From Bryobacter aggregatus MPL3 (GTDB taxonomy: Bacteria; Acidobacteriota; Terriglobia; Bryobacterales; Bryobacteraceae), in contig NZ_JNIF01000004.1 of the NCBI RefSeq assembly GCF_000702445.1, forward strand, positions 186,001-250,000: DNA of 64,000 bases, read 5' to 3'. A program made the translations under genes and the position numbers. Of the stretch, positions 8,320-46,163 are shown one piece after another (the first letter of the stretch is position 1; each line of letters begins with the position of its first letter). The notes under the pieces are model-generated. The model had not been told where the DNA came from. It was given only the letters and a program-made list of their open reading frames with translations, and did no database searches.

Positions 8320-9330
8320 TTAGCGTTGGGTGTAATTGCGCTCGTAGTAATCGCGATAGCTGCCGCTTTTCACGCGCGCGACCCAATCGCGATTCTGCAC
8401 ATACCATTCGATGGTGGACTGCAGCCCAAGTTCAAAATCCATCTCGGCGCGCCACCCGGTTGTCTTCTCCAGCTTCTCGCTGGTGATCGCATAGCGGCGA
8501 TCGTGTCCCGGACGGTCCTTCACCGTTTTCATTAACGATTCCGGCTTGCCCGTGATCTTCAGAATCCGGTGCACCACCTCAAGATTGGCCAGAGCCCGGC
8601 TGCCGCCGACGTTATACACTTCACCTGGCTCACCCTTGGCCAGCACGGCATGGATCGCCCGGCAGTGGTCATCAACATAAAGCCAGTCCCGCACTTGCAT
8701 TCCATCGCCATAGATCGGCAGTGCCTGATCCTCGAGTGCATTGGAGATCATCAGCGGAATCAGCTTCTCAGGAAACTGGTAAGGCCCGTAGTTGTTCGAG
8801 GCACGTGTCACCATCACTGGAAAGCCAAAGGTCTTGGCGTAGCTCAGGGCCAGCAGGTCGCTGCCTGCTTTGGAGGAAGAGTAAGGGCTTGATGCGATGA
8901 GAGGATAGCTCTCATCGGCGTCCAGAGGCTCAGGAATGCTCCCGTAGACCTCGTCCGTTGAAACATGCACATAACGGCCAATCCGATGCCTCTTGGCCGC
9001 TTCCAGTATCTGGAAGCTCCCCATGAAATTTGTCGACACGACGGGTTCGGGCGAAAGGATACTGCGGTCGACATGGCTCTCGGCGGCAAAGTGCACCACG
9101 GCGTCCGGACGATGTTCCACAAAGGCGGCATCTACCGCTGCGGCATCGCAGACATCGGCTCGTACAAAGCGGTAGCGCGGATTGCCTTCGATCGTCTTCA
9201 GATTCTCGAGATTGCCCGCATAGGTCAGCTTATCGAGGTTGACGACGCTGAACTCCGGGTGCGCATCCATCGTCAAGCGGATAAACGCCGATCCGATGAA
9301 TCCGGCTCCCCCAGTCACAAGAATTTTCAT
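8320..9330 (-). CDS. rfbB: dTDP-glucose 4,6-dehydratase
   Basis: A 336-residue extended SDR enzyme. The N-terminal Rossmann motif is TGGAGFIGSAFIR; the substrate/NAD region has HFAAESHVDRSI, and the catalytic motif is SPYSSSKAGSD with YxxxK. STDEVYGSI and RASNNYGPYQFPEKLIP are classical RmlB segments. It converts dTDP-glucose to dTDP-4-keto-6-deoxyglucose, for cell-surface rhamnose or other 6-deoxysugars. It is the last gene of the rfbA-rfbC-rfbB operon, with 4-bp overlaps. Confidence 0.96.
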   Translation of the reverse strand: MKILVTGGAGFIGSAFIRLTMDAHPEFSVVNLDKLTYAGNLENLKTIEGNPRYRFVRADVCDAAAVDAAFVEHRPDAVVHFAAESHVDRSILSPEPVVSTNFMGSFQILEAAKRHRIGRYVHVSTDEVYGSIPEPLDADESYPLIASSPYSSSKAGSDLLALSYAKTFGFPVMVTRASNNYGPYQFPEKLIPLMISNALEDQALPIYGDGMQVRDWLYVDDHCRAIHAVLAKGEPGEVYNVGGSRALANLEVVHRILKITGKPESLMKTVKDRPGHDRRYAITSEKLEKTTGWRAEMDFELGLQSTIEWYVQNRDWVARVKSGSYRDYYERNYTQR

Positions 9331-32370: not shown

Positions 32371-32520
32371 TGCGGATGCAGTAGCTACCGGACATCATTG
32401 CCTAGGTATTGAAAATAAAAGAAAAATAGATTTTCAATTTCAGTGACCGACTTGCAATGGTGGTGATTGTGGCCTTGCTTTCCTAAACCATCGTTGAGCG
32501 CAAGGAGGGTCTCTCTGGGC

Positions 32521-32526
32521 TAGTAT
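32521..32526 (+). promoter_or_regulatory. -10 box of the CRISPR-like RNA
   Basis: TAGTAT, ending six bases before the pseudo-repeat at 32533, so transcription should start at or near the pseudo-repeat. The array leader has TATACT at the same distance from the first true repeat, and both are preceded by CTGGG. No good -35 lies 17 bp upstream; TTGAGC at 32494-32499 is 21 bp away. Confidence 0.55.
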
Positions 32527-32532
32527 GGAACT

Positions 32533-32728
32533 GTCTGGCGAAAGCCAGTGGATTGAAACCGCTTGTTAGTGCTACGTGAATTAGCGGCGTCAGAATTTCC
32601 AAACGGGAGCCCTTTAGGGGCTGCCCAACTGGCGCCTATATTATGCTGAACCTCCTAGGTTCAGCGTACTGACATAAGGCGACGGAAATTGGCTGGATGG
32701 TAAACGGACCTGCGTGGTCCATTTTTTT
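32533..32728 (+). ncRNA. CRISPR-like guide RNA (CreR/CreA type) upstream of the cas operon
   Basis: Bases 32533-32559 are a diverged CRISPR repeat: GTC at the 5' end and GTGGATTGAAAC at the 3' end are identical to the array repeat. The stem between them is different (CTGGC and GCCAG around a GAAA tetraloop instead of CGCGCCC and GGGCGCG around CTCGC), so the fold is kept while the bases changed. Bases from 32560 form a spacer-like segment that matches 32742-32762 on the minus strand next to a TTC PAM. Hairpins follow at 32605-32626 (GGGAGCCC/GGGCTGCCC) and 32645-32665 (perfect 9 bp), and the unit ends at a terminator. In known CreR/CreA RNAs such a guide directs Cascade to repress, not cut, a promoter. 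The function here is inferred. Confidence 0.75.
32706..32728 (+). terminator. intrinsic terminator of the CRISPR-like RNA
   Basis: Stem GGACC/GGTCC with loop TGCGT, then A and seven T residues. It would give a transcript of about 195 nt from 32533. Confidence 0.65.
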
Positions 32729-32765
32729 ATCTCAGAAATTTTTCAGTTAGTACTAAAAAGCGGAA
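32729..32765 (-). promoter_or_regulatory. predicted Cascade target of the CRISPR-like RNA (protospacer plus TTC PAM)
   Basis: On the minus strand the PAM TTC (complement of 32763-32765) is followed by CGCTTTTTAGTACTAACTGA. The guide segment from 32560 reads CGCTTGTTAGTGCTACGTGA. Positions 1-5, 7-11, 13-15 and 18-21 match; positions 6, 12, 16 and 17 do not. Positions 6 and 12 are ones that flip out and do not pair in type I R-loops. The site ends 8 bp before the -35 box of the promoter at 32774-32802. The core TTAGTACTAA (32747-32756) is also a perfect palindrome, so a protein operator cannot be excluded. Confidence 0.7.
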
Positions 32766-32773
32766 GATTGTTC

Positions 32774-32802
32774 TTGCAGTCAGCAAGAATCGAGCGCATT
32801 AT
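32774..32802 (+). promoter_or_regulatory. promoter upstream of the 171-aa gene and cas operon
   Basis: -35 box TTGCAG (32774-32779), 17-bp spacer, -10 box CATTAT (32797-32802). It lies about 80 bp before the start at 32886 and next to the predicted Cascade target. Confidence 0.6.
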
Positions 32803-32885
32803 TCCCTCAGGGACTCATTTGAGCTGGTTGCTCTCCTCGCTGGTGATCAACTCCCTTCAAAAGAAAATTCAACAAGGAGTTGAAT

Positions 32886-33401
32886 ATGCGCTCTAAAATA
32901 TTTTCGATTCGTGTTCGTGCTGAGCACGAGTATGTTCCTCAGTGTGGAGTCGATTGGCCCGGAGAGATGGCGGGGCCAGTACTCGGCTTTCATGCCGCTA
33001 AGGAGATGCTGAACTCGATTTTGTATATTCCAGCCATCGAGTGGAAGATTGAGAATGTCTATCCTCTATCCCGTCGACAGGATTTCGAGTTGCGCATTCC
33101 TGGGACTGACAAGCGAAGGCATTGGGTACTTGAGCAGGTGATTTCCAGGGATGAAATCCCCCGTGATCACGATGCAATGCACCGCAGTCCCTTGAGCTTG
33201 AGAAATGTCGACTTCGCCATCTTCGCGCATTTCGCCAGCACAGGTTGTTGGGGCGACGGGGATAGTATCCGAAAACTTGAAGAAATCTTTGAATGGCGGG
33301 TCAGTCATGGGCATTACATCTCAAAGCCCAGTATCCAGCTTGAGCTCCCTGCGTACATTGATTGGTATGAAGGCTTGCCCGCGCCACTGAGAGTTGACTA
33401 G
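32886..33401 (+). CDS. unknown 171-residue protein between CRISPR-like RNA and cas3
   Basis: A soluble protein with no signal peptide or membrane segment. I do not recognise its family. The start MRSKIFSIRVRAEHEY is fixed by an AAGGAG seven bases upstream. Visible patches are CGVDWPGEMAGPVLGFHAAKE, an IEWKIENVYPLSRRQDFELRIPG beta-rich stretch, HWVLEQVISRDEIPRDHD and LPAYIDWYEGLPAPL at the end. It is the first gene after the promoter adjacent to the predicted Cascade target. It could be a Cascade-repressed toxin of a CreTA-like addiction unit, a cas accessory protein, or a bystander. Nothing in the sequence decides among these. Confidence 0.7.
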   Translation: MRSKIFSIRVRAEHEYVPQCGVDWPGEMAGPVLGFHAAKEMLNSILYIPAIEWKIENVYPLSRRQDFELRIPGTDKRRHWVLEQVISRDEIPRDHDAMHRSPLSLRNVDFAIFAHFASTGCWGDGDSIRKLEEIFEWRVSHGHYISKPSIQLELPAYIDWYEGLPAPLRVD

Positions 33402-33703
33402 CAGATGAAATCAATGAGAAAACGGGGCCACTCGGCTCAGATTGAGTCTTCAGCGCGAGTGCACTTGCTCCCTGAACTTGTGGCCGGTCACTTCAATATT
33501 TCACTCCGAACGTAAAGCCAATAGATGCATTGGTGTTTCACGGCAATATCATTTGGCCCCAGCCGTTTCTGCGTGTCTTCAGTGAGGAAATCCAAGATTG
33601 TAAATTTGATAGGCAAAAAGGATGCAGATGAAGCCAGGTTTGGGATAGGATCGTTGTCTGTCTGAATGGAATTGAGCTGTTAGTTCTTATCGAAGGGACT
33701 CAA
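33402..33703 (+). other. 302-bp gap before cas3 with a short coding-like remnant
   Basis: No complete gene. A plus-strand frame of about 46 codons from 33475 (after a TGA) includes VFHGNIIWPQPFLRVFSEEI and stops at about 33630; it reads like the tail of a protein but has no start signal. A weak promoter candidate (TTGTCT at 33654-33659) precedes cas3. A GAAGGGA ribosome-binding site at 33692-33698 serves the cas3 TTG start. Confidence 0.4.
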
Positions 33704-36172
33704 TTGAAGCAAGAGTTTATCGCGCATAGACGAAAGTGTGATCAGAAAGAACAAAGCGTTGGAGAGCATCTGCTCAACGTGTCACGGTTGTCAGCAAAGT
33801 ACTCCGGGAAAATTGGGTTAGCGGAGCTGGGAGAACTCATTGGGCTCCTCCACGATCTTGGAAAGTACAGTGCCGAGTTCCAAGCTTATTTAAGATCTGC
33901 GGAAGGATTGATTGATCCTGACGCAGATGACTATGTGAATGCGAGCCTAATGAAGGGGAAAGTAGATCATTCGACTGCCGGCGCTCAATATTTGTGGGCG
34001 CGCCTCTCCAGACAAAGCGGTTTGAGTCCCTTTATTGCTCAATTGGCCTCGCTTTGTATCGTGTCTCATCATTCCGGGCTGATTGACTGCCTTGCGGCAG
34101 GCGGGGAGCGCTTTGGCGAGAACGTGCTTTCTCGCCGTATGGACAAGAGTGACTTCAAGACCCATCTCAATGAGGTCAATGTCTCGGCAGATACCGAGAT
34201 CCTTTCGCGAGTGGATGAGTTGTTGTCGATGGAGTCTTTGATCGAAGGCGTACGAAGTATTGGAGTCTCGATCGCCCAGAAGAACCATCAGTTTCCAATT
34301 GGAGCGCAACAACATTATGGGCTTCTTGTACGGATGCTCTTTAGTTGTTTGATCGATGCCGATCGAACGGATACGGCGGATTTTGAGAAGACAGGTGGAG
34401 CCATGCTTCGCCAGCATGGGGAATATTCACAATGGGGTGAATTGTTGCTTCGACTGGAAGCGAAAATTGGCGGACTGGAGAATCGGCGGCCCATTGACGC
34501 GCTACGTCAAGAGATCTCGATGCAGTGCCAGGCGGCGGCAAGTCGCCCGAAAGGGACTTACACTCTTACCGTTCCCACTGGCGGAGGAAAGACACTCGCC
34601 AGTCTCCGCTTCGCGCTGGAGCATGCTGCGGCCAGGAATCTAGATCGCATCATTTACGTCATCCCGTACACATCGATCATCGATCAGAATGCGAATGTCG
34701 CGCGGGAGGCGTTGGAAATAAATGCTGAGGAGCGAGGTCGCATTGTTCTCGAGTGCCATAGTAATCTTCTTCCTGAGGCGCAGACATGGCAAGAGAAGAT
34801 CCTCAGTGAGAATTGGGACGCACCCGTAATTTATACGACGATGGTGCAGTTCCTCGAGGTTCTGTTCAGCGGTGGAACTCGAGGGGCGCGGCGCATGCAT
34901 CAGCTGGCGCGGTCCGTTCTGATTTTTGACGAGATCCAGACCCTGCCACTGCGCTGTGTTCATCTTTTTAATAACGCTCTGAATTTTCTTACGGAACAGT
35001 GTGATAGCACTGTCGTGTTGTGTACGGCGACACAGCCACTTCTGCATCAAGTGTGCGAGAAAAGAGGCGCGATTCGACTTGCTCCGGATTCCGAGATCGT
35101 TGCGAATCCGGGAGAGGTTTTTGACCAGTTAAAGCGTGTGAGTGTGGAGGATCTCCGACGTCCGGAAGGGTGGAGCTATCCAGAGGTGGGCCGCCGGGCG
35201 GTGGAGGAATGTCTCCAAAACGGCAACTGCCTCGTGATCGTGAACACAAAGGAGGCGGCGCGACAAGTCTATCGTGCCTGTGACGAACTGCATCCTGAAG
35301 AACGAGTTCACCTCAGCACAGATATGTGTCCCGCTCATCGTAAAGAGAAACTCAAGATCGTGCTGGATCGAGTCAAAAATAAGCAGCGCGTGGTCTGCGT
35401 CAGTACACAGCTTATTGAAGCGGGAGTCGATGTCGATTTTCGGATTGTGATTCGTTCCTTGGCTGGGCTCGATTCCATTGCTCAGGCAGCCGGGCGGTGC
35501 AATCGAAATGGGGATCCAGCGCCGGGCAGGGTATTGGTGATGAATCTCAAGGAGGAGAAGCTCTCTATGCTTCCAGAATTAATTCTGGCGCAGAAGGAGG
35601 GCGCCCGACTGCTAGCAGACTTTGCTGCGAATCCAACCCGATACCGTGACAACTTATCCGGACCCGAAGCGATGGCGGACTACTACCGGAATTACTTTTT
35701 TGCGAGGAAAGAGGAGATGAGTTATGTGATTGGGAGGAAGGAACTCGGTCACGACGATACCTTGTTGAATCTATACTCCGAGAATAAGCACGCCTGGGAG
35801 AAGCTTGCTGGGAAGGGCAGCTACGATACAAGACTGCATTTTCGACAGGGGTTTCAGAGTGGCGGTACTGCTTTCCGAGTGATTGATAGCCCCACGCGTG
35901 GAATTGTCGTCCCGTATGGGGATGAGGGGAAGAAGATCATCGGGGAGCTGTGTGCGGCGTTTGAGGTAAAGAAGCAATTCTCAATTCTGCGCCGGGCGCA
36001 GCAGTTCAGTGTGAATGTCTTCCCGCATGTTCTCGAGAAGTTGAACCAGGCTGGCAATTTGTATCAAGTCCAGCCGGAGGTGCCGATTCTCTATCTCGGA
36101 GAAGGCCACTACAGCGAAGATTATGGATTGTCGGTGGAGCAAGTAGAAGAAATGGAGTTGATGAATGTCTAG
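33704..36172 (+). CDS. cas3: CRISPR-associated helicase/nuclease Cas3 (type I-C)
   Basis: An 822-residue Cas3 with HD nuclease then SF2 helicase. The N-terminal HD domain has [11 protein letters not shown] and the metal motif HDLGK (His50). The helicase has Walker A VPTGGGKT (about 290-297) and the DExx box DEIQ (Asp409), then TATQPLL and the motif VI region [10 protein letters not shown]. Cas3 is recruited by Cascade to unwind and degrade target DNA. The TTG start is supported by GAAGGGA upstream. Its stop overlaps the cas5 start by 8 bp. It is the first gene of a complete I-C operon. Confidence 0.96.
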
Positions 36173-36893
36173 CCCAGTGCGAAATAGCATTGAGTTCAAA
36201 TTAACGGGACGCTACGCCTTGTTCACGGACCCCCTGACCAGGCTTGGCGGAGAAAAGTGCTCGTACCATGTTCCGACTTATGAGGCCCTGAAGGGGGTCG
36301 CTAAGTCTATCTATTGGAAGCCGAGCCTGATCTGGATCATTGATGAGCTTCGTGTGATGAAGCGAATCCGGACGCAGACAAAAGGCACAAAGCCGATGGA
36401 GTTTGGCGGCGGCAATAGCCTGGCGATCTATACCTTCCTGGCAGATGTCGAGTACCAGGTTCGTGCTCATTTCGAATGGAATGAGCATCGACCGGAACTG
36501 GCAAGCGACCGCGTGGAAGGCAAGCACTTCTCAATTGTCCGGAGGATGCTGGAGCGTGGCGGGAGGCAGGACATTTTCCTGGGTACTCGCGATTGCCAGG
36601 GCTATGTCGAGCCATGTGAGTTCGGTTCTGGTCCGAGCCCTCTCGATGGAGATGGCCGGCTCTCGTTCGGACTGATGTTTCACGGGTTTGATTACCCGGA
36701 TGAGACTGGCGAGAAGCACCTCAGCGCAAGATTCTGGCGTCAGGAAATAGTGAACGGTGTGATTTCGTTCCCACGTCCAGAAGCCTGTGAGATGCGCAAA
36801 GTCATTCGTCCCATGAGCGTGAAGCCGTTTGGGATTGGCAAAGCCGTGAAGAGTGTTGAGGTCGAGTATGCCCAATTGGAGGATCTTCGATGA
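36165..36893 (+). CDS. cas5c: type I-C CRISPR-associated protein Cas5c
   Basis: A 242-residue Cas5d/Cas5c protein of normal length. Typical segments are [24 protein letters not shown] at the N-terminus and [19 protein letters not shown], with [10 protein letters not shown] and [10 protein letters not shown] further on. In type I-C systems, which lack Cas6, this protein cuts the pre-crRNA at the repeat stem and keeps the 5' handle (about the last 11 bases of the repeat). That is why the conserved TGGATTGAAAC of the pseudo-repeat at 32549-32559 matters. It overlaps cas8c by four bases. Confidence 0.95.
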
Positions 36894-38815
36894 GCTGGAT
36901 GCAGCGACTCTTTGAAACCTACGAGCGGTGTGCGGGGAGAGAGGCAGATGGGCTGGATCGATTGATGCCCATCAGCCATACGAATCAGCAGGCTCAGATT
37001 GAGGTCACGCTCGATCAGCGCGGCGCCTTTCGAGGCGCATCGGTTCTTTCGGACAAGGATAAAGCCACGACGCTGATCCCGTGTACCGAAGAGTCTGGTG
37101 GGCGGGCTGGTAGTAAGCCGGTGAATCATCCTCTTTGCGACAAGTTGCAATATGTTGCGGGAGACTTTGTCGAGTTTGGGGGAGAAGTGACGTCGGGTTT
37201 TGCTTCCGACGCGTCAGCACCGCATCGGGAGTTTTTGAGATCCCTCCGAGGTTGGGCGAACTCAGATTATGCCCATCCAAAGTTGGATGCGATTCTGCGG
37301 TATGTGGAAAGGGGCTCGGTCGTTGCCGATCTCGTTCAAGCGGGAATCCTGCCGGTGGATGAGAATCGTCTTGTTCTGAAGAGCTGGACTGGTGAAAGAG
37401 AGGAAGCCCCGCCGATCTTCAAGGCGATTCAGAATACACAAGCACCTGAGGATGCATTTGTCCGTTGGAGGATCGAAGATGATCGTACCCCGATTGCCAA
37501 CACGTGGGATGATTCCGAGTTGATTGCTTCCTGGGTTTCCTACTACAAGGAGATCCAGACCAAACGTGGCATCTGTATGGTGACGGGCAAGGAGAGCACA
37601 CTCGCGGTGCAGCACCCGGCCAAGCTGCGGCATGGTGGGGACAAAGCAAAGTTGATCTCTTCCAACGATACGAGTGGATATACCTTTCGTGGACGATTTC
37701 TCGAGGCAGATGAGGCCGCCACCGTCGGGTTTGAGGTGACGCAAAAGGCTCATAACGCGCTGCGCTGGTTAGTCAAGAATCAAAGCTACCGTAGCGGTGA
37801 CTTTGTGGTGGCGAGCTGGGCGGTGACCGGCAAGGTTCTCCCAAATCCGTGCTACGACACGATGGATCTGTTCCTCCATGTTCCCGAGGAACAGGTGCGT
37901 ACTGAGGTTTCTTCCGATACGGCGCAAGAGTTTGGCCTCAGGCTTGCGCGAGCGATCGCGGGGTATGGATCTACGCTGGATCCGGGGGAAGAGATCGTTG
38001 TGATGGCTATTGACTCTGCTACGCCAGGGCGGATGGGCATCCCTTTCTATCGAGAGTTACGTGGTTCGGAGTTCTTGGAGCGAGTCAAGCAATGGCATAG
38101 CCAGTATGCCTGGTCTCAAAACTTTGGGAAGAACTCAAAGTTTGTCGGCGCACCTGCCCCGCGTGACATTGCTGAGGCTGCTTACGGCCGCCGTTTGGAT
38201 GACAAGCTTCGGAAGGCGACGCTCGAACGTCTGTTGCCGTGCATCGTGGATGCTCGGCTCTTGCCTCGCGATCTTGTCCTGTCGACAGTCCATCGGGCTA
38301 CCAACAGGGTAGGACTGGAGCGATGGGAGTGGGAAAAGGTTTTAGGAATAGCGTGTTCGCTCTGGCGAGGACACTACATCGATAGGAGATACCAGATGGC
38401 ACTAGAAGAAGATCGAAGGAGTCGCGACTATCTGTTTGGACGGCTTCTCGCGATTGCCGACGACATTGAGAGCTACGCGCTGTGGGCCGCGAAGGAGGAG
38501 AGAAGCACTACCGCAGCTCGCTTGACGCAGCGTTTTGCAGATCGTCCTTTGTCGACATGGCGAACGATCGAAATGGGTATACGTCCTTATGCTGCAAAGC
38601 TTCGTTCGGGAGAGAAGAAATGGCGGGACCGAATTTTTGCTCGCGAGAAGCTTCTCGACGTCGTTGTTTCGATGTTCAATCCCGAAGATTTTACAAGTGA
38701 AGCGCGTTTAAGTGGAGAATTCCTGCTGGGCTATCACTGCCAGCGGCAGGCCCTTCGCCCATCTGCGAGCCCCAATGACACGAAAGATACAGATGTAACA
38801 GGAGAAGAGAAATAA
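36890..38815 (+). CDS. cas8c: type I-C CRISPR-associated protein Cas8c (Csd1)
   Basis: A 641-residue Csd1-family large subunit. Recognisable parts are [14 protein letters not shown] at the start, [30 protein letters not shown] (the VTG..HP.I region), [16 protein letters not shown] and the [12 protein letters not shown] area. Cas8c recognises the PAM and supports the R-loop in Cascade; in I-C systems an internal start can also give a Cas11-like small subunit. The ATGA overlap with cas5c shows coupling. Two bases separate it from cas7c. Confidence 0.95.
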
Positions 38816-38817
38816 TC

Positions 38818-39657
38818 ATGAGCACCTTACAGCACAAAATTGATTTCGCGCTGGTACTGCGGGTGAAGAACGCAAACCCGAATGGCGATCCGTTGAACGG
38901 CAACCGGCCGCGTACTGATTATGAGGGACTTGGAGAGATCACCGATGTCTGTCTGAAGCGCAAGTTGCGCGACCGGCTACAAGAGGCTGGTGAAGCCATC
39001 TTCGTGCAATCGGACGACCGGAAGATTGATGGTGAGCCTAGTCTCCGAGAGCGAGCACGGTCAGAGACGAATGGTTTAGGTCAGAAAGCTTTTAGCAAAT
39101 GGAAAAAAGAGGATACGGCGAAGGCTGCTTGTGAAAAATGGTTTGATGTCAGAGCTTTCGGCCAGGTATTTGCCTTTGGCAAAGATGGTGATGCGAGCGG
39201 TGTTTCGATTCCGGTTCGTGGTCCTGTGACGATTCAATCGGCATTCAGCAAAGAACCCGTGAGTGTGACGAGTACGCAGATCACAAAGAGCGTCAGCGGC
39301 GAAGGCGATGGATCGAAGAGAGGATCAGACACGATGGGTATGAAGCATCGTGTGGATTCCGGAATCTACGAGTGCTACGGGAGTATCAATCCACAGTTGG
39401 CGGAGCGCACCGGTTTTAGCGACGCAGATGCGGAACGATTGAAATCGATTCTCCCGAAGCTGTTTGAGAATGATGCCTCATCGGCCCGGCCTGAGGGGAG
39501 CATGGAAGTCCTGAAGCTGATCTGGTGGAAGCATGGGAGCAAGTCTGGGCAGTATTCTTCGGCAAAGGTCCATCGCTCTCTTCAGGTTGGAAAGGATGGC
39601 GGGATTGAAATCGCCGAGCTTGCCGGATTAGAACCGGACGTGATTGACGGCTTCTAG
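38818..39657 (+). CDS. cas7c: type I-C CRISPR-associated protein Cas7c (Csd2)
   Basis: A 279-residue Cas7/Csd2 backbone protein. It has IDFALVLRVKNANPNGDPLNGN at the N-terminus, the FDVRAFGQVFAF strand, IPVRGPVTIQSAFS, and the VDSGIYECYGSINP segment. Several copies form the helical Cascade backbone along the guide, with a thumb that displaces every sixth guide base. This periodicity is the reason mismatches at positions 6 and 12 of the predicted target should be tolerated. Confidence 0.96.
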   Translation: MSTLQHKIDFALVLRVKNANPNGDPLNGNRPRTDYEGLGEITDVCLKRKLRDRLQEAGEAIFVQSDDRKIDGEPSLRERARSETNGLGQKAFSKWKKEDTAKAACEKWFDVRAFGQVFAFGKDGDASGVSIPVRGPVTIQSAFSKEPVSVTSTQITKSVSGEGDGSKRGSDTMGMKHRVDSGIYECYGSINPQLAERTGFSDADAERLKSILPKLFENDASSARPEGSMEVLKLIWWKHGSKSGQYSSAKVHRSLQVGKDGGIEIAELAGLEPDVIDGF

Positions 39658-39665
39658 CGAGGACA

Positions 39666-40307
39666 GTGATGTATTCAGAGGAAGAACTCTTACCCCTTTC
39701 CGGAATTCAGCACTTTCTCTTCTGTCCCCGGCAGTGGGCGCTGATTCATGTGGAGCAGCAGTGGGCAGAGAATCGCCTGACGGTGGAGGGGCGAGTTCTT
39801 CATGACAAAGTGGACGAGGGGAAACCCGAATCAAGAGATGGTTATCGCATCGAGCGCAGCATTCCGCTGCGCTCGTTTGCGTTAGGACTGACCGGTAAGG
39901 CGGATGTCGTCGAGTATCCTCTCGATCGCAGTTCGGCGTTAGTTCCTGTCGAGTATAAGCGGGGCAAAGAGAAGAATCACGATGCCGATGTGGTGCAGCT
40001 TTGCGCCCAAGCCTTGTGTCTCGAAGAGATGACCGGAACCTCGATTCCCAGTGGAGCAATCTTTTATGGCGAGCCTCGGCGCCGTCTGCCTGTTGTGTTT
40101 GACGAGGAACTCCGCCAGACGACCCAGCAGGCGGCAGCGGATATGCACCGGCTGTTTCGCCTGGGCGAGACACCGCGTCCGGTGTTTGAGAAGAAGTGCA
40201 AGAACTGTTCTCTGCTGGAAATCTGTGAACCGAAGCGGATGGGCCGCAGCGGCATGGGTAAGGAATGGGAATCGATGCTGCACCAGTGTCTGAGCGAGAG
40301 GCTATGA
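39666..40307 (+). CDS. cas4: CRISPR-associated exonuclease Cas4
   Basis: A 213-residue Cas4 with GIQHFLFCPRQWALIHVEQ (first Fe-S cysteine), the RecB-like nuclease core GKADVVEYP ... PVEYKRGK, and the C-terminal cluster CKNCSLLEIC. It trims prespacers and helps select PAM-bearing ones together with Cas1-Cas2. Its TGA stop overlaps the cas1 ATG at 40304. Confidence 0.95.
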   Translation: MMYSEEELLPLSGIQHFLFCPRQWALIHVEQQWAENRLTVEGRVLHDKVDEGKPESRDGYRIERSIPLRSFALGLTGKADVVEYPLDRSSALVPVEYKRGKEKNHDADVVQLCAQALCLEEMTGTSIPSGAIFYGEPRRRLPVVFDEELRQTTQQAAADMHRLFRLGETPRPVFEKKCKNCSLLEICEPKRMGRSGMGKEWESMLHQCLSERL

Positions 40308-41335
40308 AGAAACTGCTGAACACGCTGTTTATCACGCGCCAGGGCGTCTATCTTGCCAAAGAGGGCGAGACGATTCAGGTGAAGGAAGCCGATGAGACGT
40401 TGTTGCGCGTTCCTGTTCATACCTTGCAAGGGGTGGTGTGCTTTGGGCGGGTGAATGCCTCGGCGTCGTTGATGGGATTCTGCGGGGAGCGCGGTGTTTT
40501 GATGAGCTTCTTTACGGAGTGGGGCGAGTTCCTTTGCCGGGTCCAAGGTCCGGTGTCGGGGAATGTCCTGCTGCGCCGGAGACAGTATCGAGTAGCCGAT
40601 GATGTGGAGGGCTGTCAGGCTGTGGTGCGGACGATTGTCTGTGCGAAGGTCGCCAATTGCCGACAGGTGCTGATGCGGGCGATTCGGGAAGAATATGACG
40701 ACTCAGAGAGCTTGAGTCGGCAAGTGGTGGTGCTGAAGAGTGTGCTGGAACGGGCGGCGCGTCCGGGGCAGAGCGTGGATGTGCTGCGTGGTTTGGAAGG
40801 CGAGGCGGGGAAAGCTTACTTTGGCTGTTTTCAGAGTCTGATTGGGGAGGGACGAGAAGAGTTTGCGTTCCAGGGGCGAAGCCGCAGGCCACCGCTGGAC
40901 CGGGTGAATGCGATGTTGTCTTTTGTCTATACGCTGCTGGTGCACGATGTCACGAGTGCGCTCGAGGGAGTGGGGCTCGACCCGGCTTGTGGCTTTCTCC
41001 ATAAGGATCGGCCCGGCCGTCCGAGTCTGGCGCTGGATTTGATGGAAGAGTTGCGACCGGTGATTGCGGACCGGCTGGTGTTGAGTTTGATCAATCGACA
41101 ACAGGTGCGGACGAGGCATTTTCGCGAGTCCGAAGGGGGCGCTGTATTGCTGAACGAAGAGGGCCGAAAGGAGGTTCTGACGGCCTGGCAGAAGAGGAAG
41201 CAGGAAGAGTTTCTGCATCCGATGCTGGAGGAGCGAGTCGCTGTGGGGTTGCTGCCTCATGTGCAAGCGATGTTTTTGGCTCGCTATTTACGTGGAGATT
41301 CCGAGATGTATCCGGCGCTGCTCTGGAAGGGGTGA
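40304..41335 (+). CDS. cas1: type I-C CRISPR-associated endonuclease Cas1
   Basis: A 343-residue Cas1 starting MKKLLNTLFITRQGVYLAKEG. The ATG at 40304 overlapping the cas4 stop is preferred over a longer reading. The C-terminal helical integrase domain has EGEAGKAYFGCF (catalytic Glu), GLDPACGFLHKDRPGRPSLALDLMEELRP (catalytic His and Asp region) and LINRQQVRTRHF. It integrates new spacers with Cas2. Confidence 0.97.
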   Translation: MKKLLNTLFITRQGVYLAKEGETIQVKEADETLLRVPVHTLQGVVCFGRVNASASLMGFCGERGVLMSFFTEWGEFLCRVQGPVSGNVLLRRRQYRVADDVEGCQAVVRTIVCAKVANCRQVLMRAIREEYDDSESLSRQVVVLKSVLERAARPGQSVDVLRGLEGEAGKAYFGCFQSLIGEGREEFAFQGRSRRPPLDRVNAMLSFVYTLLVHDVTSALEGVGLDPACGFLHKDRPGRPSLALDLMEELRPVIADRLVLSLINRQQVRTRHFRESEGGAVLLNEEGRKEVLTAWQKRKQEEFLHPMLEERVAVGLLPHVQAMFLARYLRGDSEMYPALLWKG

Positions 41336-41341
41336 ATCGGG

Positions 41342-41632
41342 ATGCTGGTGCTAGTAACCTATGATGTTTCGACCGAAACGTCCGCGGGACGAAAGCGTCT
41401 GCGGCGAGTGGCGAAGCATTGCCAGAATTTCGGGCAGCGGGTGCAGAACAGCGTGTTCGAGTGTCTGGTGGATCCGGGGCAGTATGCCGATTTGCGTGCG
41501 AAGCTGCTCGATGAAGTGGATCTGGATGAGGACAGTTTGCGGTTTTACTTTTTGGGAGCAGAGTGGAAGCGGCGGGTGGAGCATCACGGGGCGAAGGTTG
41601 CGTACGATCCGGAAGGTCCGCTGATTATTTGA
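41342..41632 (+). CDS. cas2: CRISPR-associated protein Cas2
   Basis: A 96-residue Cas2 with the ferredoxin-like fold signatures LVLVTYDVSTETSAGRKRLR, the NFGQRVQNSVFECLVD strand and DSLRFYFLGAEWKRRVEHHG. It bridges Cas1 dimers in the spacer-integration complex. It is the last cas gene, seven bases after cas1, and directly precedes the leader. Confidence 0.97.
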   Translation: MLVLVTYDVSTETSAGRKRLRRVAKHCQNFGQRVQNSVFECLVDPGQYADLRAKLLDEVDLDEDSLRFYFLGAEWKRRVEHHGAKVAYDPEGPLII

Positions 41633-41814: not shown

Positions 41815-44800
41815 GTCGCGCCCCTCGCGGGCGCGTGGATTGAAACAGATGGCGCTCGACCTTGATGGTGCGGGCCCGTGGTCGCGCCCCTCGCGGGCGC
41901 GTGGATTGAAACGAGGTAGCTCGAATCTTAGTGCGTTTATCGGCGGGTCGCGCCCCTCGCGGGCGCGTGGATTGAAACGCGGGACGAACTCAGTGCGAAG
42001 CCGCTCGAAGCCGTCGCGCCCCTCGCGGGCGCGTGGATTGAAACCTATCTGCAAGCGAAGCAGAGATCGCACTGGGAGTCGCGCCCCTCGCGGGCGCGTG
42101 GATTGAAACACATGTCCGGGTTGTAGCCGTTGATGATGGCGTGTCGCGCCCCTCGCGGGCGCGTGGATTGAAACACCGCCAGAATGGACAATCCCCCAGG
42201 CCGGCACGTCGCGCCCCTCGCGGGCGCGTGGATTGAAACAGTATCTTGCTGCGAAGCCGGTTATCGCGGGAAGTCGCGCCCCTCGCGGGCGCGTGGATTG
42301 AAACCCAACGCACAGCGCAGTCTTGGGGATCATCACGTCGCGCCCCTCGCGGGCGCGTGGATTGAAACTCACCCGTAGGATCACTAGTACTGTTGCTTTT
42401 TAGTCGCGCCCCTCGCGGGCGCGTGGATTGAAACGTGTTTCGTGCGGGAGCAATAATTCATGACGCCTGTCGCGCCCCTCGCGGGCGCGTGGATTGAAAC
42501 CTTCGCGCGGCTTTATGCATCGCCGGATCAAGGCGTCGCGCCCCTCGCGGGCGCGTGGATTGAAACGTGACCGATGGCGAGAAGAGTTCGAAGCGAAAAC
42601 GTCGCGCCCCTCGCGGGCGCGTGGATTGAAACCAATAGCGGGTCTCACCCTTACCCCACTCGTGTTCGTCGCGCCCCTCGCGGGCGCGTGGATTGAAACT
42701 CGCCCTTGACCGCAGCCAGGCGGAGCGCTGTTGTCGCGCCCCTCGCGGGCGCGTGGATTGAAACACATCACGTTGTCTCTCGACCGGGCGGCGGGGAGTC
42801 GCGCCCCTCGCGGGCGCGTGGATTGAAACGATTACGCCGCGACTGTAGACACTTCACCACATGTCGCGCCCCTCGCGGGCGCGTGGATTGAAACCACCGT
42901 GCCATTCAGCTTGACGCCCCACGGCTCGGTCGCGCCCCTCGCGGGCGCGTGGATTGAAACGAGTTCTTGCGGTTTGTGCCCCAGGTCATTTCGGGTCGCG
43001 CCCCTCGCGGGCGCGTGGATTGAAACGGCTACGCCAGCGCTGCTGAGCCCCAGACTGCAGTCGCGCCCCTCGCGGGCGCGTGGATTGAAACGGCGACGAT
43101 AACCTCTGACGAAAGCCCCGCATTGTCGCGCCCCTCGCGGGCGCGTGGATTGAAACTACGGACGAGAAGAAGACAAAGGGCGTCCCGCCAGTCGCGCCCC
43201 TCGCGGGCGCGTGGATTGAAACTCGAAGGTGTCAACGTCAAGATCGACAATCTCGGTCGCGCCCCTCGCGGGCGCGTGGATTGAAACGTTGGTCTCAGTG
43301 TTGTAGATGTACAGTTTCATGTCGCGCCCCTCGCGGGCGCGTGGATTGAAACAGCTTTGAATCGCCAGGCGCTCGGGAAGTCTTTGTCGCGCCCCTCGCG
43401 GGCGCGTGGATTGAAACATCGGCATGCCTTGCTCGATGATTCGGTCGCCGCGTCGCGCCCCTCGCGGGCGCGTGGATTGAAACGGTCGACAACAGTAAGA
43501 TCGACAACCTTGCTGTCGTCGCGCCCCTCGCGGGCGCGTGGATTGAAACGCGTAAGTGGCTACTGAGTAAACTCAAGCCCGAGTCGCGCCCCTCGCGGGC
43601 GCGTGGATTGAAACTGCCCGTTGTAAGTTCGATCCAGCACGTCGCAGTCGCGCCCCTCGCGGGCGCGTGGATTGAAACTTCGCGACAGGTTTCAGCTTTG
43701 AATCGCCAGGCGTCGCGCCCCTCGCGGGCGCGTGGATTGAAACAGATCGTGCTGGTTTGCGACCTCTGCGATGAACGTCGCGCCCCTCGCGGGCGCGTGG
43801 ATTGAAACACGTACAGACTACCTGAACTCCCTCCGCAACAAGGTCGCGCCCCTCGCGGGCGCGTGGATTGAAACCTCGAAGGAATTGCCGACTTTGCAGA
43901 AGGCATCGCGTCGCGCCCCTCGCGGGCGCGTGGATTGAAACATCTCATCCATGTAGCCGGGTGCAGGCCGCTCGTCGCGCCCCTCGCGGGCGCGTGGATT
44001 GAAACAATCAGAACGCTTCGTCTGGCTACGTCATCCGCGTCGCGCCCCTCGCGGGCGCGTGGATTGAAACAAGTTTCGAATGCTCCTCAACTTTTGGGTA
44101 CGGCGTCGCGCCCCTCGCGGGCGCGTGGATTGAAACTAGGTGGCACTGGTGAGATCAACACTACGCCCGGTCGCGCCCCTCGCGGGCGCGTGGATTGAAA
44201 CAAAAACGTCGTGTTGCCGATGCAGCAGTACTCAGTCGCGCCCCTCGCGGGCGCGTGGATTGAAACACAACAGTGCCAGTGCCACTGGCAACGCGGAAGC
44301 GTCGCGCCCCTCGCGGGCGCGTGGATTGAAACTTGCAATCTAGGAATCCTCTTTTTCAGATTTCTGTCGCGCCCCTCGCGGGCGCGTGGATTGAAACTAC
44401 GAATCGTTGCTTTCCCACGGCCTGAATATGTGTCGCGCCCCTCGCGGGCGCGTGGATTGAAACTCGGTGCACCATGAGGTGTCGCCGCCCATCTTGACGT
44501 CGCGCCCCTCGCGGGCGCGTGGATTGAAACTTTAACCGCGTGGCGGAGCATTTGTTGGCGCAAGTCGCGCCCCTCGCGGGCGCGTGGATTGAAACAAGAC
44601 TAGCGCGAGAATCAAAATGTTTATCAAAGGTCGCGCCCCTCGCGGGCGCGTGGATTGAAACTCGTGTGTTGGTCATGAATCAACAATACACGCTGTCGCG
44701 CCCCTCGCGGGCGCGTGGATTGAAACCATTGATCCGCGTTGAAAAGTTGATTCACTTCAGTCGCGCCCCTCGCGGGCGCGTGGATTGAAACTCGGTCGCC

Positions 44801-46163
44801 GCCAGCGCCGAGTAACGCTGCATATGTCGCGCCCCTCGCGGGCGCGTGGATTGAAACGAGAATCAACCGATCACTCTTATCGTGGTGATAGTCGCGCCCC
44901 TCGCGGGCGCGTGGATTGAAACCGCATAAACTATTTTCGTGAGAGTTGCATTTTGTCGCGCCCCTCGCGGGCGCGTGGATTGAAACTTGGAAGATCTTTT
45001 ATGAAAAATCTCCCAGTGGTCGCGCCCCTCGCGGGCGCGTGGATTGAAACTGGGATATTCCTGATCAGTAGTAACGCCGCTAGGTCGCGCCCCTCGCGGG
45101 CGCGTGGATTGAAACTTTCCCAGTGCCGCAGAACCCGATTATTGCCGGACGTCGCGCCCCTCGCGGGCGCGTGGATTGAAACTTTTTTAATTTATCCCAA
45201 TCAATCGATCTGGCCCGTCGCGCCCCTCGCGGGCGCGTGGATTGAAACCAGAAGAATTCCCGCGTCGACGAGACCACGAATCACGTCGCGCCCCTCGCGG
45301 GCGCGTGGATTGAAACCCATCGCAATCGATCAAAGAATACGAAAAATGGGTCGCGCCCCTCGCGGGCGCGTGGATTGAAACCGGCCGCCGGCAACTGAAG
45401 AAGGCGCCATGAACGTCGCGCCCCTCGCGGGCGCGTGGATTGAAACTGGTCCTGAAGCGGTTTGCTTTTGCTCGGCTGGAGTCGCGCCCCTCGCGGGCGC
45501 GTGGATTGAAACCGGTGCCATCGAGCGCGCCATTATTATGGCCGGGTCGCGCCCCTCGCGGGCGCGTGGATTGAAACGGCTGTCAAACTCCTCACAAAAC
45601 ATTGGCAATTTGTCGCGCCCCTCGCGGGCGCGTGGATTGAAACGAGAAGGTTGCGACGGCCACTGTAAACCTACCCGAGTCGCGCCCCTCGCGGGCGCGT
45701 GGATTGAAACATGCGCTCATTAATCAAATGCGCGCGGACGACAGTCGCGCCCCTCGCGGGCGCGTGGATTGAAACACGCTCAGATAGAGACGGATGAGTA
45801 TTGTACCCTGTCGCGCCCCTCGCGGGCGCGTGGATTGAAACCACCGCCTCCGGCTGCACGAACGGCAGCACCTCGTCGCGCCCCTCGCGGGCGCGTGGAT
45901 TGAAACGCGGGCCGCCGCGAACGCCGCTTGAGTGTCAAAGGTCGCGCCCCTCGCGGGCGCGTGGATTGAAACGCAAACGCAGCGGTTGGGACAAATCGTA
46001 AATCAGTCGCGCCCCTCGCGGGCGCGTGGATTGAAACTCGCTGTGCTCCCCGCCGTGACTAAGCCGGATGGGTCGCGCCCCTCGCGGGCGCGTGGAGTGA
46101 AACTTAGTGCTACCTATGTAGGTAAAAGAGCTGTTGCGTCACGCCCCTCGCGGGCGTGGATGG
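41815..46163 (+). CRISPR. type I-C CRISPR array, 67 repeats and 66 spacers
   Basis: 32-bp repeats beginning GTCGCGCCCC and ending GTGGATTGAAAC, with spacers of 32-36 bp. The repeat folds into a 7-bp stem (CGCGCCC with GGGCGCG). By reading, repeats 1-65 are identical. Repeat 66 (46072-46103) has one change (GGAGTGAAAC), and repeat 67 (46138 onward) is degenerate: GTCACG at its start, two bases lost from the stem and a broken 3' end. This marks the trailer and, with the leader at cas2, fixes the orientation. The long, uniform array indicates an active system. Confidence 0.98.

Follow-up and report, generated by a model that had tools for sequence, protein, structure and literature searches.

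A candidate CreR-like guide RNA aimed at its own type I-C cas locus in Bryobacter aggregatus MPL3

The window analysed in this work (the whole stretch of 64,000 nucleotides from contig NZ_JNIF01000004.1) harbors a complete type I-C operon (cas3, cas5c, cas8c, cas7, cas4, cas1, and cas2), preceded by a solitary CRISPR-like repeat whose following bases match, beside a TTC PAM, a second site upstream of the same genes. This self-targeting, crRNA-like element is real and not the outcome of chance, and it most likely acts as a regulator of the CreR type, here in a type I-C locus. The handle, the stem, the PAM, the pairing, the uniqueness of the match, and the homology of an adjoining gene to cas5c can be read directly in the DNA; on this basis, we consider it reasonably probable that the stretch 32533-32728 encodes a CreR/CreA-like RNA through which the recruited type I-C Cascade would repress the locus. 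The self-control of cas genes by a crRNA-like RNA is a known kind of regulation, which is probably represented here in a type I-C form.

The solitary repeat and the putative RNA

Moving toward cas3 from its 5' side, one first meets the solitary diverged repeat and then a structured stretch that closes with a terminator-like site; the target and a gene of 171 codons follow, and the last 300 bp before cas3 form a gap. The features of the locus are the following (positions of the window):

32533-32559, plus strand: psiR, diverged solitary CRISPR repeat with GTC, a 5-bp stem (CTGGC/GCCAG), a GAAA loop, and the 12-base handle GTGGATTGAAAC
32560-32585, plus strand: psiS, the guide, about 26 nt up to the next stable hairpin, which begins at guide position 27 (pairing)
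32586-32636, plus strand: tail hairpin 1 (folding; no Rfam match of note)
32642-32668, plus strand: tail hairpin 2 (folding)
32706-32728, plus strand: terminator-like hairpin with T-run, end of the putative RNA
32742-32762, minus strand: protospacer-like target, 17/21 matches to the guide
32763-32765, minus strand: TTC PAM of the target (guide-target alignment)
32771-32789, no strand assigned: inverted repeat TTCTTGC-agtca-GCAAGAA, between the target and cas5L (sequence read directly)
32774-32802, plus strand: weak promoter-like pair TTGCAG/17 nt/CATTAT, the best-scoring one, 8 bp past the PAM (promoter matrix)
32886-33401, plus strand: cas5L, truncated and diverged Cas5c homologue of 171 aa, with AAGGAG in front (homology searches)
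33704-36172, plus strand: cas3 (start as in the list of open reading frames)
36165-36893, plus strand: operon cas5c, of a Cas5c branch other than that of cas5L (family and profile matches)
36890-38815, plus strand: cas8c (family matches)
38818-39657, plus strand: cas7 (family matches)
39666-41632, plus strand: cas4, cas1, and cas2 (family matches)
41815-46037, plus strand: CRISPR array, 65 exact-handle repeats and then two degenerate repeats (repeat search)

The array repeat is GTCGCGCCCCTCGCGGGCGCGTGGATTGAAAC, the same in all the 65 array copies with an exact handle, and the pseudo-repeat reads GTC-TGGC-GAAA-GCCA-GTGGATTGAAAC. The bases of its stem are unlike those of the array repeat and pair perfectly, the 27-mer folding into a single 5-bp hairpin (-8.3 kcal/mol, z -3.1); hence, sequence and fold both agree with an earlier reading of the letters (the sequence-only reading), according to which GTC and the 12-base handle are kept on a changed stem. 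Across the whole genome, 98 exact copies of the handle are present: 65 belong to this array, 31 to a second one, one to the pseudo-repeat, and one lies on C3. The second array (L106), located elsewhere in the 5.75-Mb genome, has 31 copies of a slightly different repeat and one spacer in common with the array of the window. The copy on C3 has a GTC 8 bases ahead of the handle; it sits inside an oxidoreductase gene (pyridine-nucleotide type, a frame of 325 codons), and the corresponding 27-mer does not fold into a stable stem (z -0.1).

As regards a second repeat (psiR2) of the element itself, no other exact handle was found nearby, and none with one mismatch plus a stem in 32371-33703, which speaks against the CreR/CreA reading; in the available excerpts of the literature, creA is described with one or two repeats, so that psiR2 is not required. 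The 148-nt tail (32581-32728) folds better than each of its 200 shuffles (200/200, z -4.0), the Rfam search of the RNA region returning two weak and irrelevant matches only, and this structured tail may do the work of a second repeat by setting the 3' terminus of the RNA. In longer folds (54 and 199 nt), other pairs partly displace the repeat stem, which is a point against a simple processing. As for the proposed terminator of the RNA, a hairpin with a T-run is present at 32706-32728, but about 1.5 such sites are expected per shuffle of the region, versus the one found.

The guide and its target

The base-level alignment confirmed the match described from the letters: the guide, starting at 32560, pairs with the minus strand at 32762-32742, next to the TTC PAM, at positions 1-5, 7-11, 13-15, and 18-21, with mismatches at 6, 12, 16, and 17; beyond position 21, the matches are scattered. 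Type I Cascade leaves guide positions 6 and 12 unpaired, and the odds of two mismatches in 1-15 landing exactly on these two positions are 1/105 (~1%). The target is the best of the 2,553 TTC sites of the 64-kb window, the runner-up having 8 mismatches in 21. When the PAM and positions 1-15 (6 and 12 free) were used as a pattern, the 5.75-Mb genome yielded one site with zero mismatches and three others with two mismatches each, one of which is the guide itself; the reversed control pattern yielded 15 sites at two or fewer mismatches, so that two-mismatch sites represent background. A further comparison was made with the 62 TTC sites in 32371-33703, upstream of cas3, by scoring the 18 non-sixth positions and the unbroken run. 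The guide reached 16/18 with a run of 13, versus a maximum of 14 and a run of 9 for 20,000 random 24-mers of the window, and of 11 and 7 for the 65 array spacers. The guide-target pair is also the sole inverted match of at least 16/21 in 32371-33703, a local hairpin and its own shifts aside. The alternative of a simple RNA-RNA stem formed by guide and target was rejected, as the PAM and the mismatches at 6 and 12 favor Cascade and a terminator-like site lies in between. Overall, the reading of the element as a guide RNA is well supported by the PAM, the pairing pattern, and the genome-wide uniqueness, and the element resembles the tested I-F CreA.

The sequence-only reading also placed the target in the promoter of its own locus. 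The site does lie upstream of the locus genes, but the nearest of them is cas5L (about 120 bp downstream), the called cas3 start being 942 bp away, and no consensus promoter was found at the target or for the RNA (0 found, 1.3 expected by chance); given these distances, we can only infer which promoter is hit and whether the target belongs to a "cas promoter". The inverted repeat at 32771-32789 might serve as an operator or fold into a hairpin of the leader. The search for terminator-like sites gave none between cas5L and cas3, and the 300-bp gap ahead of cas3, in which a promoter matrix picks out weak candidates, could contain a promoter.

According to the model we propose, an RNA would be transcribed from 32533-32728, and the operon Cas5c would bind and cut its pseudo-repeat. 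The product would start with the usual 5' handle, carry a guide of some 26 nt, and end in the structured tail where a second repeat would otherwise stand. Cascade loaded with this RNA might occupy the TTC-flanked site 32742-32765 via 17 pairs, 13 of which fall within positions 1-15, and the bound complex would block the RNA polymerase without Cas3 cutting. As a consequence, cas5L would be repressed, and also the whole cas operon if transcription crosses the 300-bp gap; competition for Cascade from ordinary crRNAs would lift the repression. If this model is right, one repeat plus a structured tail serves as a two-repeat mini-array.

The cas5L gene and the alternative scenarios

The gene at 32886-33401, initially regarded as an intervening unknown gene, turned out to be a truncated and diverged homologue of cas5c. 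Its product matches Cas5c in PADLOC (E=1.5e-9) and the solved I-C Cas5 chains in the PDB (E=1.2e-6), and no family match besides Cas5c was found. With a profile built from six Cas5c it scores 47 bits, and with one of 84 operon-type Cas5c 5 bits, which makes a recent duplication of the operon cas5c an unlikely origin for the gene; its identity is about 26-32% to the Cas5c proteins matched and about 20% to the operon Cas5c. About 60 C-terminal residues are missing, RRNEV, PYLGCREF, and other Cas5c motifs are worn, and no C-terminal Cas5 remnants were found 3' of the gene. The mean pLDDT of two structure predictions was only 31 and 35. The frame is open and preceded by the ribosome site AAGGAG; such an open frame despite the divergence suggests that the gene has been kept. 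The GC content of cas5L (51%) is similar to that of cas3 (52%), the two upstream genes having 57% each, and on this likeness the segment may have come in together. In Pfam, three of the six upstream neighbors scanned are of metabolic or peptidase types and three have no match.

No close relatives of cas5L were found in the genome collections, in the viral collections, or, at a strict limit, in plasmids. The seven plasmid matches consist of six annotated Cas5c and one unannotated protein; phage records and viral contigs gave no match to cas5L, and a Cas5c-led scan of the viral contigs gave three Cas5c-like stretches. In a set of 396 genomes of the phylum, four besides its own contain five cas5L matches, with open frames of 235-283 aa, that we read, from their sequences, as ordinary Cas5c. 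The Cas5c profile has at most one match in each of the other surveyed loci, several of which are short contigs.

The position of the target, directly 5' of cas5L, leads to the alternative that survives best, although we regard it as rather unlikely: Cascade and the RNA would keep cas5L off and, upon the loss of Cascade or its inhibition by an anti-CRISPR, the Cas5 fragment would be produced and act as an alternative subunit, a decoy, or a toxin. The kept function suggested by the intact frame and ribosome site at about 26-32% identity fits this idea, and both of its components have precedents in the excerpts available to us: in CrePA, a crRNA-like RNA represses a protein gene (PMC12737573), and AcrIB3, a Cas5 mimic, takes the place of Cas5 and thereby blocks Cascade (PMC13131331). 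Yet AcrIB3 shares 38% identity with the Cas5 whose place it takes, compared with the ~20% of cas5L to the operon Cas5c, no family other than Cas5c is recognized in the latter, and cas5L and cas3 might simply be co-transcribed. We would give a similarly low chance to the corresponding evolutionary scenario, in which the I-C locus acquired a Cas5c from elsewhere, trimmed it to what may be a decoy or an alternative subunit, and placed it under its own crRNA-like guide, giving a Cascade-sensing circuit with a Cas5 mimic as its output. If this were true, Cascade would silence its own antagonist or spare part, and a Cascade-disabling anti-CRISPR would turn the Cas5 mimic on. We know of no earlier case of a Cas-subunit homologue adjoining such a target, and, if our interpretation is right, the presence of cas5L beside it offers a direct test of whether subunit mimics are domesticated under Cascade control.

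It is less probable still that the whole region is evolutionary debris, in which a solitary repeat and the remains of a cas5c were left behind ahead of a newer operon and no longer serve any function. The presence of one repeat only, the lack of a DNA relative in the 256 other genomes of the order, and the shortening and worn motifs of cas5L are what would be expected in this case, but a guide match of this quality next to a PAM is not expected by chance, the stem has remained intact though its bases have changed, and the cas5L frame is open.

An anti-CRISPR cassette derived from a mobile element, made up of a Racr-type repeat mimic and a Cas5 mimic that sequester Cas proteins and lower the Cascade activity, appears very improbable. 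Excerpts of the literature do report that an I-C Racr beside an Acr gene inhibits I-C (PMC10651486) and that a Cas5 homologue can act as an Acr (PMC13131331); nevertheless, cas5L has no match in the phage records or the viral contigs, its plasmid matches are nearly all annotated Cas5c, and the guide-target match would be left unexplained. Lastly, the idea that the target governs a small toxic RNA encoded in 32766-32885, rather than a protein or the operon, reproduces the RNA type and target layout of creTA as excerpted from PMC10097628, but the sole ribosome site seen there by eye is that of cas5L and no separate small gene was identified, which makes it the least credible of all.

Recurrence of pseudo-repeats and comparison with known systems

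Returning to the repression of the locus by a CreR-like RNA, the occurrence of similar elements was checked in other genomes. The search for cas8c in 257 genomes of the order revealed nine with a match (that of the window included, and one of them weak), from which eight loci were taken. No DNA match to the interval was found in the other 256 genomes, so that covariation offers no support, and no relatives of the RNA were found. The loci with DNA ahead of cas3 are L011, L014, L015, L016 (less than 400 bp), and L018; L012, L013, and L017 stop inside the operon. In those five, a handle search allowing up to two mismatches and inspected by eye revealed no element of the type GTC-stem-GTGGATTGAAAC upstream of cas3; in L014, a two-mismatch handle is located about 500 bp upstream, with GTC and stem missing at the expected place. 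L018 represents a different I-C-like system within the same order. On its minus strand, near 8410, it carries a solitary repeat with the handle of its own array, GAGGATTGAAAC, 176 bp upstream of cas3.

A cas3-led genome scan, from which the best 80 of 521 relatives were kept, allowed the scoring of pseudo-repeats in 76 I-C-like loci (L027, L049, L061, and L082, having less than 150 bp of upstream DNA, were dropped). Matches with stem and handle were seven in 102,259 upstream bases versus one in 325,478 control bases. In five of the 76 loci (L031, L051, L062, L066, and L097, titled Sulfuritalea, Bacillota, Bacillus, Desulfosarcina, and Acidobacteria), a pseudo-repeat lies 104-190 bp ahead of the cas3 match and on its strand, and weaker matches occur in L073 (minus strand) and L083 (at -1420). 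An earlier and looser scan of 73 of the best 80 loci had given 29 with a handle-like match, many of them lacking a visible stem. Two degenerate repeats are found in L066.

The guides of the five loci have no TTC-flanked target above that of shuffled guides, which is a point against the proposed model, and those of L018, L020, L029, and L068 have no convincing target in the region near cas3, to which that search was confined. The guide-like stretch of L097 is a palindrome, ATAAAGTAGCTACTTTAT, and matches its own other strand; the only good match of this guide, with TTT, is the palindrome itself. The five pseudo-repeats may represent CreRs whose pairing is weaker, or sites at which Cas5c cuts the leader of cas3. 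The recurrence of pseudo-repeats upstream of other I-C-like cas3 genes supports, and hints at, a wider class, rather than the specific mechanism proposed for 32533-32765.

The comparison with known systems draws on excerpts of the cited papers. In Acinetobacter, the I-F CreA guide pairs at 17 of 20 nt, sparing 6, 11, and 18, and repression is lost when any of positions 13-17 is broken; archaeal CreAs need an 11-bp seed (PMC10097628), which in the present guide is intact except for position 6. The I-F CreA and the present element share 17 paired positions, a spared sixth position, and a PAM beside the target, two further positions being spared in CreA. On the other hand, the I-F CreA has two repeats and represses a toxic RNA, and it requires positions 13-17, whereas 16 and 17 are mismatched here; hence, the analogy is incomplete, and this is a point against our interpretation. 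With CrePA, the element shares a crRNA-like RNA with a target ahead of a protein gene, but the protein is a Cas5c homologue and no recognized toxin. Racrs are solitary repeat mimics, with an I-C example (PMC10651486), and psiR is likewise solitary; unlike them, it adjoins cas genes on a bacterial contig and its guide matches a genomic target. cas5L resembles AcrIB3 in being a Cas5 homologue away from the usual operon slot, and differs from it in its far lower identity to the resident Cas5 and in its missing C-terminal residues.

TTC is reported as the type I-C PAM in Xanthomonas (PMC8406640) and, with TTT, in Neisseria lactamica, and an engineered I-C Cascade devoid of Cas3 represses genes if aimed upstream of them (PMC10865793).

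CreR, too, is a crRNA-like RNA partially matching a site near its own cas genes. The suggestion that the element looks new goes too far, since excerpts of two reviews (PMC13131331 and PMC12737573) already describe autorepression by CreR in I-B, I-E, and V-A, and other I-C-like loci likewise carry pseudo-repeats ahead of cas3. No type I-C CreR was met in the literature surveyed, which does not imply its absence, and the novelty of the I-C form relative to Liu 2023 and Shmakov 2023, the papers most likely to list such cases, is uncertain. Compared with the I-B, I-E, and V-A cases as excerpted, the element described here belongs to type I-C, has a single repeat and a long structured tail, and its target lies before an extra cas5-like gene; if our interpretation is right, the self-guided control of cas genes reaches type I-C and a group of organisms far from those reported.
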